Positions 1,257 through 8,208 of a DNA stretch of 35,281 nt are shown piece after piece (positions within the stretch are counted from its first letter, which is position 1; each line of letters starts with the position of its first letter). The notes under the pieces are model-generated. The model ran no database searches. It saw only the letters and a list, made by a program, of their open reading frames with translations, and was not told where the DNA came from. Source of the DNA: Candidatus Gottesmanbacteria bacterium RIFCSPLOWO2_01_FULL_43_11b (lineage in GTDB: Bacteria > Patescibacteriota > Microgenomatia > UBA10105 > UBA927); contig MFJV01000001.1 in the NCBI GenBank assembly GCA_001780985.1, positions 784,829-820,109 on the forward strand, given 5' to 3'. The position numbers were made by a program, and so were the translations under genes.

Positions 1257-1316
1257 CCGGGATAGTTTATCCTCTCCTCCCAAACCTAACTTTTCCCGTC
1301 AGAACTAGCTAGAAAG

Positions 1317-1325
1317 TGGTAAAAT
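1317..1325 (+). promoter_or_regulatory. Extended -10 promoter (TGG-TAAAAT) upstream of the R-M gene
   Basis: TGnTAnAAT motif 11 nt before ATG 1337. Confidence 0.5.
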
Positions 1326-1498
1326 AGATACAGATTATGTTGAATGACTATCTTTATGACATTTTTAAGACTTAGAAAACGAAAGATGCTACCGAACCAA
1401 GTTATTATCCCGATTTAAAAAAACTCCTTGTAAGCTACCTAGAAAAAAAAGGCAGAGTTCCTAATATCACCGTAAACCCCAAAAAGACTTCCGCGGGT

Positions 1499-3718
1499 AT
1501 GCCGGATTTCACTATTCGTAGAGGACACGAATTGATTGGCTATATTGAAGCTAAAGACCCCAAATATGAAGATTTAGACGCGTTACCCGCAAGAGATATA
1601 GAACAACTCGATCGTTACAAAGACAAACTTCCTAATCTTATCTTGACTAATTTTTTTGATTTTTGGTTGTGGCGAAAAGAGGAGAAACGGTGGATTAAAA
1701 AAGTGCGAATCGGTATGCCGAGAGTTTTCAATTCTCTAAGGATGGCTCCACCAGCGCAAAAGGAAGGTGAATTTTTTGATTTACTCACCGCGTTCTTTAA
1801 TTTCTACATCCCGGAAAGGAAAACAGCCCAATCTCTTGCCGAGGAACTAGCTGGAAGAGCCCAGCTTTTACGGCCATATATCATTGAACTTCTCACGGAT
1901 AATAAAGATGAAGAAATAGATCGAATATATCAGTCGTTTACTGAATTCCTTATTCCCGATCTCTCAAAAGACGATTTTGCTGACATTTACGCCCAGACAA
2001 TCACTTATGGATTATTTACTGCAAGATTATTGACTAAAAACGGGAGAGGGTTTAATCGTTTTGAAGCTCAATCTCTTTTGCCAAAGAATTTACCGCTTCT
2101 CTACCATACTTTTAATCTTATTTCCTCTAGCGCACTTCCAGAATCAATCGAATGGTTGGTTACTGAAATTACCACCGTTCTAGCAAATGCGGACATGGAA
2201 CAAATTAAGACTGAGTTAAATCTCCGTAAAGGTGTAGATGATCCCTTCGTCCATTTCTATGAAGATTTTTTGTCGGTATATGATCCCCAAAAAAGAGAAA
2301 AGCGTGGAGTTTACTATACGCCTTTTCCTGTCGTTTCTTATATCACTCGCTCAATTAACGAAATATTAAAAAACGATAGATTCTTCAACTTTAAAGAAGG
2401 GTTCGCGGATAAAAATGTTACTTGTCTGGATTTTGCTTCTGGAACTCTTACTTTCCCTGTTAACTCCATTAAAATCGCTCTTTCAGAATACAGTAAGTGG
2501 AATCCGGATTTAGGAGGGATTACCGGATTTATCAGAAATCACATCTTGAAAAATTTCTACGCTTTCGAGCTTTTAATGGCGCCTTATGTTTTAGGCCATC
2601 TCAAAACCTCATTATTGCTTCGTGAATATGATTATAACTTCAACTCCAGTGATAAAGATGATCGGTTTAATCTTTATCTCACAAATACTCTCGATTTCGA
2701 TCCAATAAAAGAAAGCAATCAACCTTTTACTTTTTACTTGTCAGAGGAAGGGAAAAACGCTTTAGAAGTTAAAAAAGACAAGCGAATATTAGTCGTTATG
2801 GGCAATCCGCCATATTCGGTAAGTTCCCAAAATGACACAGAGTTTACCCGTAAGGAAATGGCGCTATATAAAGAAGATGTTAGAGAGGAAAGGAATATTC
2901 AACTCTTATCTGATGACTATGTTAAGTTTATTCGATTCGCTCATTGGAAAATACAACAAGTTGGTTCCGGTGTAATTGGAGTGATTACTAAAAACACTTA
3001 TCTTTCAGTTTCTGCTTTTAAAGGCGTGAGGAAGAAACTCTTGGAATACTTCGATGATGTTTATGTCTTGAATCTTCACGGAAAACTTTATGAGAAAACA
3101 CCGGATGGCAAACCGGATGAAAATGTTTTTGATATAAGAGTAGGTGTTTCAATTCTATTTCTAGTAAAGAATGGCAAAAAGAAAGAGAAATACGCCAATC
3201 TCCACTTTGCTGAATTAAGAGGTGATAGACAATCAAAATACAACTATCTTAGTAGGGACTCGCTTAATACTACTAAATGGGAGGAATTAGAGATTGACGA
3301 AGAATACTTCTTTTTTGAAAAGAAAGAATTTGAGCATAGTGACATGTACAAGAAATTTATTAAAATAAACCAAATTTTCGGTACAGGTAATCCTGTAAAA
3401 GATCAAGGGACATATTGGTCGAGTGGAGTAAAAACAAATAGGGATTTTTTACTTACTGACAACGACGAAATGAGATTAAAGAGGAGGATATCTGACCTTC
3501 AAGATTTACAAAGGTCATCCGATGAAGAAATCAAGCTTATATATGAATTAAAAGATGATAATTACTGGCAAACTTCGAGAGAAAGAAGAAAGTTAAGCGG
3601 GATAAATATCGACGATAACATTTATCCCTACTTTTATAAACCTTTCTCGCCAAGATTTATTTATTATCAGCCGAATCTAATCGAAATCCACAGGGGGGGG
3701 GAGCTAGTAAGAATGTGA
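1499..3718 (+). CDS. Fragment 1 of Type IIG/ISP R-M enzyme: PD-(D/E)XK nuclease + N6-adenine methyltransferase
   Basis: MPDFTIRRGHELIGYIEAKD nuclease motif; NPPY methylase motif; ends just after the poly-G tract. Confidence 0.85.
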   Translation: MPDFTIRRGHELIGYIEAKDPKYEDLDALPARDIEQLDRYKDKLPNLILTNFFDFWLWRKEEKRWIKKVRIGMPRVFNSLRMAPPAQKEGEFFDLLTAFFNFYIPERKTAQSLAEELAGRAQLLRPYIIELLTDNKDEEIDRIYQSFTEFLIPDLSKDDFADIYAQTITYGLFTARLLTKNGRGFNRFEAQSLLPKNLPLLYHTFNLISSSALPESIEWLVTEITTVLANADMEQIKTELNLRKGVDDPFVHFYEDFLSVYDPQKREKRGVYYTPFPVVSYITRSINEILKNDRFFNFKEGFADKNVTCLDFASGTLTFPVNSIKIALSEYSKWNPDLGGITGFIRNHILKNFYAFELLMAPYVLGHLKTSLLLREYDYNFNSSDKDDRFNLYLTNTLDFDPIKESNQPFTFYLSEEGKNALEVKKDKRILVVMGNPPYSVSSQNDTEFTRKEMALYKEDVREERNIQLLSDDYVKFIRFAHWKIQQVGSGVIGVITKNTYLSVSAFKGVRKKLLEYFDDVYVLNLHGKLYEKTPDGKPDENVFDIRVGVSILFLVKNGKKKEKYANLHFAELRGDRQSKYNYLSRDSLNTTKWEELEIDEEYFFFEKKEFEHSDMYKKFIKINQIFGTGNPVKDQGTYWSSGVKTNRDFLLTDNDEMRLKRRISDLQDLQRSSDEEIKLIYELKDDNYWQTSRERRKLSGINIDDNIYPYFYKPFSPRFIYYQPNLIEIHRGGELVRM

Positions 3719-4494
3719 TGAAAAATTTCTTTGTGAGAGGATTAAACTTAAGTCTAATTCTAAAAAAACGCTTTAATGAAAAATCGTATGCCCACTGTTT
3801 CGTTTCTGATACTCTTGTTGATATTAATTTTCTAAGCGGACAAACATATGTTTTCCCTTTGTTCATCGATGGTGAGTTACAGTTAGCCCTTGATTTTGAA
3901 TCAAATGGTAGAAAGCCGAATTTTTCCAATAATTTTCAAGACGTTATCAAAATAACTTATAAAGAGATTCCGAATCCACAAGATATTTTTGCGTATATTT
4001 ACGCTGTATTAAATTGTAATATTTATCGAAAAAAATATATTACCTCTTTGGTAAATGACTTTCCTCGAATTCCCTTTACATCGAATTATCAGCTATTTAA
4101 AAGCGTTTCAAAATTAGGAAACGAATTAATCTCTTTACATTTACTCAACAATGATTGTCTTAATAATCCTGTCGCTAAATTCTTTGGTAAAGATTCCGAG
4201 TTGGTGAAATCCAAAGCTATTTATAAAGACGGTAAGTTGTTTGTTAATGAAACTCAGTATTTTGAAAAGGTCGAAAAAGAAATATGGGAGTTCCACGTTG
4301 GTGGCTATCAGGTATTAGACAAATGGTTTAAAGATAGAATTGGTAAACATTTAGACGATGATGATATCCGCCACGTTTGTAAAGTCATCACAGCTATTTC
4401 GAAAACATTAGATGTTCAAAATGAGATTGATAAGTTATATATCGAGTTAGAGAATAGTCTAATAAAAACTCCACAAAAAGCTAATGAGGTATAA
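3715..4494 (+). CDS. Fragment 2 of Type IIG/ISP R-M enzyme: target-recognition/specificity domain
   Basis: VMKNFFVRGLNLSLILKKR..., FAYIYAVLN, DFPRIPFT, GGYQVLDKW motifs; open upstream into the poly-G tract (GGASKNVMKNFF). Confidence 0.85.
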   Translation: MMKNFFVRGLNLSLILKKRFNEKSYAHCFVSDTLVDINFLSGQTYVFPLFIDGELQLALDFESNGRKPNFSNNFQDVIKITYKEIPNPQDIFAYIYAVLNCNIYRKKYITSLVNDFPRIPFTSNYQLFKSVSKLGNELISLHLLNNDCLNNPVAKFFGKDSELVKSKAIYKDGKLFVNETQYFEKVEKEIWEFHVGGYQVLDKWFKDRIGKHLDDDDIRHVCKVITAISKTLDVQNEIDKLYIELENSLIKTPQKANEV

Positions 4495-4524
4495 TCTTGA
4501 AAAAGCAATATTTTCATCACAGAC

Positions 4525-5010
4525 ATGAAAAGAAGGAAGAGATATCGTAGGCATTTTCGAAGAACCCGTCGATCTGAGAGTTTAAGAAACCTATTACTTG
4601 CAGTTACACAAAAGAAAACTGATTTACGGAAAGTCAAATTAGTAAGTCATTATTTCACATTAAGTCCACAACGAGACGAGCGAGTAACTTATGTGTATAA
4701 AGTGAACGTTGAAGATGATAGCGATGTGGTAGAGATTACCTGCGTATCATATGATTTATTACTTGAAAACGAATGGATAACAGTTGTATACTATGATAGT
4801 CATCATGGTGGTATACTGCATAGGCATGAGGATCATAATTTAGTAAAGAATACAGAAATTGTTTCGAGTGAGCGAATCAAGAAAAAGGGAACTCAAAAAC
4901 AACTGCTTACATGGGTAATACATGATCTTACGCATAGCTACCTGTCTTATAAAAATAGATTTTTGCGGATTAACAAAAAGTATCTTCAAAGGAAAAGTAT
5001 AACCGTTTGA
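4525..5010 (+). CDS. Conserved hypothetical protein with YYDSHHGGxLHRHE motif (possibly DUF7718/TumE-like)
   Basis: 161-aa ORF; the tyrosine-aspartate ... HRH motif recalls small RNase/toxin-like families. Family assignment is from memory and tentative. Confidence 0.6.
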   Translation: MKRRKRYRRHFRRTRRSESLRNLLLAVTQKKTDLRKVKLVSHYFTLSPQRDERVTYVYKVNVEDDSDVVEITCVSYDLLLENEWITVVYYDSHHGGILHRHEDHNLVKNTEIVSSERIKKKGTQKQLLTWVIHDLTHSYLSYKNRFLRINKKYLQRKSITV

Positions 5011-5040
5011 TTTAAAATAACGAGCATAAGGAAGAAGTCT

Positions 5041-5292
5041 ATGTCTAAAGCAAAAATCATTTTTAAAAATATTAGCCTATCTGAGAAGTTTTCATTGTAT
5101 TACTTAGACAATCCAAATTTATTTGTGGATTTTCCTAATAATGCCTCAATAGTTATTTTTAGCAAATCAGATAATGAACTGAATAAATCTAATGATAAGA
5201 TACTCAAAGATTTAATTCAGGAGGGCACGGAGGTCGTAAAAGTTCAGGAAACTTCTGATCAGAACACACCTTGGAGATTTTCTTCGCCTTAA
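5041..5292 (+). CDS. Small hypothetical protein, DUF5647-like
   Basis: MSKAKIIFKNISLSEKFSLYYLDNPNLFVDFPNNASIVIFSKSDNELNKSND.. resembles DUF5647 proteins (recalled, unverified); SD-like AAGGAAG upstream. Confidence 0.6.
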   Translation: MSKAKIIFKNISLSEKFSLYYLDNPNLFVDFPNNASIVIFSKSDNELNKSNDKILKDLIQEGTEVVKVQETSDQNTPWRFSSP

Positions 5293-5411
5293 CTAACAAC
5301 GCTCAGTTCTTGAAGTTTTTCTTGTAGCATTCTGATAATCCACACAAACTGAACGAGGATTAGGAGATTTTGACGCCCCGCAGTATAATCCTCCTCAGAA
5401 ATCTCTCAGAT

Positions 5412-6269
5412 ATGAATTATTACGTTTTTCAAGTCTCGGATCAATCAAAATACGGTAAACAAAGAACAGCCCACGAGGTTTTCGATTTTCTTGTAAAAGA
5501 ACGAAAAGCGTGGGGTTTTGGGTATCATACAGCTAACCGCAAGGCTATTCAAAAAGGAGATAAAGCTCTTTTCTATCTTACTGGATTAGATAATCAAGTT
5601 TTTGTGGGTGCAGCTACATTGAAATCAGCTGCATATAAAGATGCTACCAAAGAATCAGTAGACTGGTATTTGGATCCAGAAACTCTCCGTATTGACTTAG
5701 AGGACGTGATTATTTTTCCAGAACCAAAATCACGAAAGGAATTTAAGAGCATAGAATGGAGACCCGTACAAGGTGGGTCAGGTAAGATTTCGGAACGAGA
5801 TTATTTGATTATTATGGGTTTACAGCCCGATGCGTTTAGCAAACAGGCGGAACCACAAGAGGAGATGGAATTTGCACTCGAAAAATATCTTGAGGATTTT
5901 ATCTGGGATAATTGGGATAAAATTGATTTTGATGAAAAGTTATATAAATTTACCGATGGCGACGGTAATGAAGGGAAACAATACTACACCGATGAGGCAG
6001 GATATATTGATATTCTTGCAAAAGATAGCAAAGGTAACTTCGTAGTATTTGAGCTCAAAAAAGGAAGAAAAAATGATGAAGTAATCGGTCAGATTTTGCG
6101 TTATATTGGCTGGGTAAGGAACAATCTTGCAACCAAAGGGGAGCAAGTTCGCGGCATAATCATTGTTGGATCGAAAGATTCCAAATTAGAGTATGCATTA
6201 CAGGAGATTTCGAATCTCGTAAGTGTTAAGCTTTACAAAATTACTTTTAAGATAGAAAAATATTCGTAG
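5412..6269 (+). CDS. EVE domain - NucS-like PD-(D/E)XK endonuclease fusion protein
   Basis: N-terminal MNYYVFQVSDQSKYGKQRTAHEVFDFLVKERKAWGFGYHTANRKAIQKGDKALFYLTG (EVE/PUA-like); C-terminal DEAGYIDILAKDSKGNFVVFELKKGRKNDEVIGQILRYIGWV (D..ExK..Q nuclease core). ATG 5412 preferred over the track start TTG 5370. Confidence 0.8.
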   Translation: MNYYVFQVSDQSKYGKQRTAHEVFDFLVKERKAWGFGYHTANRKAIQKGDKALFYLTGLDNQVFVGAATLKSAAYKDATKESVDWYLDPETLRIDLEDVIIFPEPKSRKEFKSIEWRPVQGGSGKISERDYLIIMGLQPDAFSKQAEPQEEMEFALEKYLEDFIWDNWDKIDFDEKLYKFTDGDGNEGKQYYTDEAGYIDILAKDSKGNFVVFELKKGRKNDEVIGQILRYIGWVRNNLATKGEQVRGIIIVGSKDSKLEYALQEISNLVSVKLYKITFKIEKYS

Positions 6270-6307
6270 GTGGTCTACTAGCATTGTTAGCATGCCTATT
6301 GGTCATT

Positions 6308-6979
6308 ATGTACAAACTCTCTCCATCCGAATTTGCCTATTTATATGAGGAGTGTAAGCTGTGCTACTTCCTCAAAATTAAGCAGGGAATTGAGCGCCCA
6401 AAGTCACCGTTTCCGGGAGTTTTTTCTGCATTAAATACCCGTCTCCAGGGCGCTTTGATCGGAAATGATTTGCGTAAGCTTTCGTCGGTTTTACCTGAGG
6501 GGACAGTTGAGAGCCAGGAAGGATTTATTGAATCTCAACAAGTTACAAATACGAATGTGTACATCAAAGGCAAATATGATCTTCTTGTTCGTCAACCCGA
6601 CAACACGTACTTAATTGTTGACTTTAAGATCAGTCAGCCGAGTGAAGAGAAAATTGCAAAGTATCAAAGACAGCTGCAAGCTTATCACTATGCATTTGAA
6701 CATCCCGCTCGGGGAGAGGCGAAAAACATCACGAAATTGGGCCTTATTATCATGTATCCGGATCAGGTGAAATTTAACGATGGTCAAGCTAGCATCACTT
6801 TTCCTCCGCAGTGGATGGAGATTGACATTAAAAAGGATTCGTTTTTGGAGTTTATGAAAGGAGTTCATACACTTCTGGAAGGTCCACCGCCATCTGAAAA
6901 TCCGAATTGCCGGTGGTGTAAATACCGCCACATCGGAGAAAAACTCACGCACCCGCAGCAAACAGACATTCCGTTTTAA
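6308..6979 (+). CDS. PD-(D/E)XK nuclease superfamily protein (Cas4/RecB-like)
   Basis: GKYDLLVRQPDNTYLIVDFKIS + QLQAYHYAFE (QxxxY), N-terminal CKLC and C-terminal CRWC cysteine pairs. ATG 6308 preferred. Confidence 0.75.
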   Translation: MYKLSPSEFAYLYEECKLCYFLKIKQGIERPKSPFPGVFSALNTRLQGALIGNDLRKLSSVLPEGTVESQEGFIESQQVTNTNVYIKGKYDLLVRQPDNTYLIVDFKISQPSEEKIAKYQRQLQAYHYAFEHPARGEAKNITKLGLIIMYPDQVKFNDGQASITFPPQWMEIDIKKDSFLEFMKGVHTLLEGPPPSENPNCRWCKYRHIGEKLTHPQQTDIPF

Positions 6980-7338
6980 ATTTTTATCGCCTTTCCTCGG
7001 TAATCATCCGGATCTTTGTTAGACAAAAATTTACAAACTAGTCGATCTATTTCCTGATTTGAGTGTTGAGACTCTATACCGAGTATCCCTGGTTTTCCTT
7101 TTTTTACTAATTTTTTGAAGTCTTTGAAATTGACGGTTAACACGAATCTATTTTCTTTAACCGCTTTTTGATAGATTTCTTCATCAGAGCACGTGGGTGG
7201 AAATCTATATGTATGAACAATATGAGTGAGGTTAGCTTTTTTTGAGAGTGAAGGAAATGACGAGGAACGTGCAAAGGCTGAATCTAAAAGAATTTTAAAT
7301 TTTCGTCTTTTCTTTTTTGACGGACTATTATGCTGCAA
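6976..7338 (-). CDS. DUF5615-type PIN-like toxin
   Basis: KFKILLD...HIVHTYRFPPTCSDEEIYQKAVKENRFVLTVNFKDF typical of PIN-like DUF5615; overlaps the upstream DUF433 gene by 11 bp. Confidence 0.75.
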   Translation of the reverse strand: MQHNSPSKKKRRKFKILLDSAFARSSSFPSLSKKANLTHIVHTYRFPPTCSDEEIYQKAVKENRFVLTVNFKDFKKLVKKGKPGILGIESQHSNQEIDRLVCKFLSNKDPDDYRGKAIKI

Positions 7339-7534
7339 GTTGGCGCTTGTAAAAACTAAATATTTCCAGGAGGTCTTTTTTAGAAATGGTAAGATACGGA
7401 TAATCCTTTTTGAAATCTTTTACTTTGTATCCTTGAATAAAAAGAGCAACAATACGGGCTACTGGTATTCTTGTGCCGCGAATGACAGGCTGTCCGCCGA
7501 GGATTTTGGGGTTAGTCTGAATTATCTCTGGCAT
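7328..7534 (-). CDS. DUF433 domain antitoxin
   Basis: NPKILGGQPVIRGTRIPVARIVALFIQGYKVKDFKKDYPYLT is a canonical DUF433 signature. Confidence 0.9.
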   Translation of the reverse strand: MPEIIQTNPKILGGQPVIRGTRIPVARIVALFIQGYKVKDFKKDYPYLTISKKDLLEIFSFYKRQLAA

Positions 7535-7543
7535 TGTTTCCAG

Positions 7544-7571
7544 ATTATAATAGATACCTATAATTTGTCAA
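7544..7571 (-). promoter_or_regulatory. Consensus sigma70-type promoter (TTGACA-N16-TATAAT) for the TA pair
   Basis: On the minus strand: TTGACA (7571-7566), 16-nt spacer, TATAAT (7549-7544), ATG at 7534 only 9 nt after the -10. Confidence 0.8.
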
Positions 7572-7594
7572 CTTTGTAATGTCATAGCAACATT

Positions 7595-7642
7595 CAGGGA
7601 CGGTCCTTGAAATTAGCGTTGTGACGCGCTAAAATCGCCTCA
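7595..7642. repeat. REP-like repeat copy 1 (CAGGGACGGTCCTTGA...GTTGTGACGCGCTAAAATCGC)
   Basis: Shares AGGGACGGTCCTT core (13 nt) with copy 2; looser downstream similarity to copy 3. Confidence 0.6.
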
Positions 7643-7662
7643 ATATAAACTTTCTCCAATCG

Positions 7663-8208
7663 ATGAAAAAAGCATATTCAACAATTGACGAACTAATACA
7701 GAGAAACCTGGATACCACAGAAAATGCTGCTACGGAAGCGCTGATCGGTAAACTTAAGGAGATTGGAAAGCGGGGATATTTCACCAAAGATGAGTTTCTC
7801 CTCATAGGAATGTGGAAAAGTCCTCGGCCCAAACAACAGTATCTGAAAAATACGGAAAAACAAATACTAGACATCTCAAAAAAAGTGTTCGCCACGAAGT
7901 TTGAAAAACGAAAAATCGAATTGCTCACGAAATTAAAAGGCGTTTCTATCCCTACAGCCTCTGCCATTCTTACACTTATCGAGCCCGAGAATTACGGAGT
8001 CATAGATATCCGTGTATGGCAGGTTTTATATTTATATGGCGCAGTTACAACTAAACCCACAGGAACGAATTTTGATTTTACCAATTGGTATACCTATCTG
8101 ATGAAGTTACGATATTTTGCACAAAAGATGAAAGTTTCAGCCAGAGACATCGAACGGACGATTTTCCTTCACCATAAAAAAATACAGGAAGGGAATCTAT
8201 ACATTTAG
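7663..8208 (+). CDS. Hypothetical protein with HhH/DNA-glycosylase-like region
   Basis: IELLTKLKGVSIPTASAILTLIEPENYGVIDIRVWQVLYLYG resembles the helix-hairpin-helix GPD core. Confidence 0.6.
   Translation: MKKAYSTIDELIQRNLDTTENAATEALIGKLKEIGKRGYFTKDEFLLIGMWKSPRPKQQYLKNTEKQILDISKKVFATKFEKRKIELLTKLKGVSIPTASAILTLIEPENYGVIDIRVWQVLYLYGAVTTKPTGTNFDFTNWYTYLMKLRYFAQKMKVSARDIERTIFLHHKKIQEGNLYI

Follow-up and report, generated by a model that had tools for sequence, protein, structure and literature searches.

The window analysed in this study is the whole stretch of 35,281 nucleotides from Candidatus Gottesmanbacteria bacterium RIFCSPLOWO2_01_FULL_43_11b. Near its start lies a gene for a single-chain restriction-methyltransferase, the two frames of which are parted by a run of nine G (Table 1). 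The sequence around the run reads CACA-GGGGGGGGG-AGCTAGTAAGAATGTGATG. The first frame, read from ATG 1337 or 1499, ends in ...LIEIHRGGELVRM before its TGA, and the protein continues in the second frame (...GGASKNVMKNFFVRGLNLSLI...) as far as 4494. According to codon arithmetic, 7 G or 10 G joins both frames. The nine-G run, the frameshift at this run and the arithmetic were found as the sequence-only reading, an earlier note on this DNA, had claimed. As in a homopolymer phase-variable gene, the repeat is situated within the frame and the frame is broken there.

Table 1. Features of the restriction-methyltransferase gene, in window positions
Feature	Position	Strand	Remark
Start codon	1337..1339	+	Fits orthologue starts; here MLNDYLYDIF..., cf. 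MLKLYLKKI and MLNSYLKGI (N-terminal alignment)
In-frame amber TAG, codon 13, first lesion	1373..1375	+	Sense codon in orthologues
Type IIG restriction-methyltransferase body: nuclease, methyltransferase, first third of specificity domain	1376..3691	+	
G9 tract, frameshift site, second lesion	3693..3701	+	Longest G/C tract in genome
Remainder of specificity domain, other frame (PF18135 109-329)	3703..4494	+	
TGA closing the shifted frame, overlapping ATG 3718-3720 (TGATG)	3716..3718	+	

The joined frame encodes three conserved regions. The N-terminal region is a PD-(D/E)XK nuclease with the motif PDF...YIEAKD, the middle is an N6-adenine methyltransferase (Pfam matches to PF02384 and Eco57I), and the C-terminal is the specificity domain PF18135 (Type_ISP_C). 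In six orthologues, the nuclease residues P43, D44, E58 and K60 and the methyltransferase motif NPPY (N477-Y480) were invariant, and all of these catalytic residues are intact here. Positions 6-105 of PF18135 matched before the break and positions 109-329 after it. This indicates that no protein material was lost and that the break interrupts the specificity domain, whereas it had been placed between methylase and specificity domain. The enzyme family named at that time was supported. The N-terminal part matched the PADLOC model REase_MTase_IIG PDLC03610 (E 3.2e-160), and PDB 7LO5, which we take to be DrdV, was matched at E 3.8e-31. The frame of a functional Type IIG enzyme is uninterrupted; here it is interrupted by TAG at codon 13 and by the frameshift at G9, and apart from these two the 1051-residue frame has no further stop.

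The GC content was 32-41% from about 1,300 to 8,000 of the window vs 43-48% in the flanks. The genes of this island are the enzyme, DUF7718, DUF5647, an EVE + PD-(D/E)XK gene (PADLOC PDC-S02, a candidate defence family) and a Cas4-like nuclease; hflX (Pfam) and mltG (named by inspection) flank them. In five relatives the enzyme is missing beside mltG. The low-GC stretch and this absence would fit an acquired defence island, within which the gene was probably acquired horizontally from other bacteria. Elsewhere in the window, the palindromic repeat CCTGCCTGCCGGCAGG occupies 1033-1048. It has 24 copies in the genome (13 forward and 11 reverse, mostly one palindrome) and its reversed control pattern has none, and it was regarded as a REP-like element. 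No Rfam family was found in the window. By eye, glycosyltransferase-like genes form an extended series in positions 13462-35280, together with several large membrane proteins of the YfhO-like kind (500-770 residues), which appear to be paralogous.

The amber codon and the meaning of TAG

The TAG at 1373-1375 was overlooked in the sequence-only reading. It is codon 13 when the gene is read from ATG 1337. Orthologues have A, T, S, Y, F, L, G or I in this column; they were chosen with open frames only, so that a sense residue there is no test alone. The N-terminal alignment with orthologues runs through the TAG and holds both before and after it. Beyond the TAG, a usual start codon first occurs at ATG 1499; a protein begun there lacks the N-terminal portion of the nuclease.

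Reassignment of TAG was considered and rejected. TAG terminates 80 of approximately 410 dominant ORFs (435 kb of the genome), including the PP2C phosphatase and RecO genes (named by inspecting the translations), and neighbouring ORFs in the same frame showed no enrichment of TAG between them (7/35). Amber suppression was also rejected. ARAGORN reported a tRNA with a CUA anticodon, 'Pyl (cta)', on the minus strand (G000:C1:37115-37187; L100 1500-1573), and gave the same label to a 99% identical tRNA in genome G021. The call is mis-framed by one base. If position 26 is taken as a single base, as is standard, the anticodon becomes UCU, and the homologues in related genomes (82-86% identical) were labelled Arg(tct). 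The tRNA search of the genome found no second Arg(UCU) tRNA besides this one, and no suppressor tRNA for amber was found in the genome. A mis-framed tRNA-Arg(UCU) of this kind is a trap when genomes are screened for amber suppressors. In this genome, TAG functions as a normal stop codon. Because the TAG at codon 13 is a real stop, no change in the length of the G tract restores the full-length enzyme. In a phase-variable gene a change in tract length alone restores the full-length product; here the amber codon blocks full-length translation whatever the tract length, which argues against the on/off switch that had been suggested.

The G tract in orthologues and in the genome

The gene is patchily distributed. 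It was absent from 23 of 23 other genomes searched in the same family, and was present in 17 of 374 genomes of the class and 20 of 380 of the phylum, this genome counted. In the collection of genome contigs, a single-protein query gave no relatives and an alignment query gave hundreds (577), the best being in Nitrospirae, Planctomycetota, Bacteroidota and others. A search of viral contigs and phages for close relatives found none. The nearest relatives are only about 45-58% identical. At the tract site, G runs reached at most 4, both among the 35 aligned relatives taken from CPR genomes and plasmids and among the 68 from genome contigs. A conserved tract, as expected of a phase-variable gene, was thus seen in none of the 35 + 68 orthologues. 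The sequence-only reading had called for this comparison and had named nine G in all reads, together with orthologues lacking a G tract, as the mark of simple frameshift decay. The approximately 100 orthologues, with at most four G, supply one half of that mark.

The closest specificity domains, those of the Nitrospirae relatives L123 and L125, read NLIEIGRGGASKDTM vs NLIEIHRGGASKNVM here at 7 G. In L123 and L125 the motif is written with mixed glycine codons. The Arg-Gly-Gly-Ala-Ser-Lys motif of the nearest relatives is written here in G-rich codons, which suggests that the tract is an accident of codon choice. Most simply, then, 7 G would be the ancestral length and the present 9 G a +2 slip; an ancestor with 10 G is possible. 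The family has other broken copies. The Planctomycetota orthologue L195 is frameshifted around 4830-4862, outside any homopolymer, and the frame of L148 stops near the same site as the G9 break. In L021 and L124, the first ORF ends just after the methyltransferase domain and a separate specificity ORF follows about 200-400 bases downstream; in L022 the first ORF also ends after the methyltransferase, and a specificity domain was not seen alongside. These three are the closest relatives in the N-terminal part and may belong to a naturally split Type IIG lineage.

Composition alone suffices to produce such a tract. G9 appeared in 16 of 100 dinucleotide shuffles of the window (mean 0.20). The genome (1,020,299 bases, one contig) has 22 G/C tracts of at least 7, of which 19 are of length 7, two of 8 and one of 9, the last being the tract studied here. 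The lengths form a smooth tail and the lone 9-mer is unremarkable. The 21 other tracts, of 7-8, were inspected genome-wide. Each lies within an open frame or at an ordinary junction between genes, and none is at a frame break; the suspicious ones (L062, L070, L064 and L071) proved to be ordinary gene pairs, and a phasome or genome-wide homopolymer errors were rejected.

A sequencing or assembly error at the homopolymer had been the main alternative in the sequence-only reading. Homopolymers are the commonest sites of such errors, no other G/C tract in the genome is as long as G9, and the conserved motif fits 7 G, so that a consensus error with a true length of 7 or 10 is conceivable at this tract. 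However, the 21 sound tracts elsewhere speak against it, and an error here would leave the amber stop unexplained and the gene still broken. We consider this explanation unlikely.

A possible phase switch or a probable recent gene death

A switch might act on a shorter product. Translation from the internal start ATG 1499 might avoid the amber codon, which comes after 12 codons, and would give a nuclease-damaged methyltransferase lacking the N-terminus of the nuclease; slippage in the G run would then switch methyltransferase and specificity. The position of G9 in an open frame that 7 or 10 G joins is consistent with this. There are also precedents of poly-G/C switching in Type IIG genes, namely cj0031 of Campylobacter (PMC8355987) and JHP1272 and HP1353-HP1354 of H. 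pylori (PMC3936762), and HP0669 of H. pylori, the methyltransferase-specificity part of a broken Type ISP gene, is active alone in E. coli (PMC3936762). However, orthologues lack the tract, no other long tract of the genome is at a frame break, no obvious ribosome-binding site precedes ATG 1499, a start there drops the first conserved nuclease residues, and a MutS-family gene (assigned to family level) is present in the genome. We therefore regard a phase-variable methyltransferase as very unlikely, and give equally little credit to its most specific form, a CPR nuclease-defective Type IIG enzyme started at ATG 1499 whose specificity domain is switched by slippage among 7, 9 and 10 G. If true, such switching would generate epigenetic variation and would mean that a CPR bacterium has a restriction system subject to poly-G phase variation; in the literature searched, we found no paper on phase-variable restriction-modification in Patescibacteria.

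Programmed ribosomal or transcriptional slippage on G9, or termination-reinitiation at TGATG (3716-3720), would yield a joined or a two-part enzyme. A G run is slippery, and the stop and start overlap in TGATG. However, no unusual RNA structure was found around the tract (z +0.55), and a frameshift programmed by such structure was rejected. TGATG arises incidentally from the conserved Val-Met being encoded as GTG ATG; GTGATG also occurs in other members of the family, among them the orthologues L006, L013 and L040. The amber stop lies upstream. This explanation is extremely improbable.

We have good confidence that the locus is a recently inactivated, horizontally acquired Type IIG gene in a low-GC defence island, carrying a nonsense mutation and a slip in a G run; a recently dead gene is the most likely reading, not an on/off switch. 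Both lesions, the intact catalytic motifs and the lack of a G tract in orthologues can be read from the DNA itself. We infer the loss of function and the order of events. The gene would have arrived with the defence island and escaped selection. Codon 13 would have become TAG by a nonsense substitution, and the frame would have been broken by slippage in the G run, most simply by +2; the two lesions would halt synthesis of the enzyme. The location of the frameshift in a G run makes slippage the likely mutation, and the intact catalytic motifs suggest that the loss is recent. Against gene death, a frame that is clean over 1051 codons except for two lesions requires the decay to be very recent. 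Read in this way, the locus shows an acquired defence gene that was lost recently. It also advises caution: homopolymers at frame breaks should be checked for further lesions before a gene is called phase-variable.

Comparison with known restriction systems

This locus holds no new kind of system. Judged from the order of its domains and from its length, the ancestral enzyme would be a Type IIG/IIL enzyme like the 7LO5 chain. The two are similar in size (1051 residues here vs 1029) and have the same order of PD-(D/E)XK nuclease, adenine methyltransferase and C-terminal specificity domain, whereas the gene here, unlike 7LO5 and PDLC03610, has an amber stop and a frameshift. The methyltransferase and Type_ISP_C regions also align with the Type ISP enzymes LlaBIII (4XQK, E 2.6e-36) and LlaGI (5FFJ, E 2.2e-24). 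However, the alignment with LlaBIII starts at residue 242 of the query and 786 of LlaBIII, and a chain of about 1050 residues vs 1578 has no room for the translocase. No helicase family was among the Pfam matches of this gene. Type ISP proper was ruled out by the missing translocase domain between nuclease and methyltransferase.

Like cj0031 (PMC8355987), JHP1272 and HP1353-HP1354 (PMC3936762), the gene has a G/C homopolymer in a Type IIG frame that is broken there. Switching was demonstrated in those genes, whereas the present gene has a separate amber stop and orthologues without the tract. The Type ISP-like gene HP0667-HP0669 of H. pylori is likewise broken by two lesions (PMC3936762), but its frameshifts are outside repeats, and in the present gene the specificity domain is itself interrupted by the second lesion.
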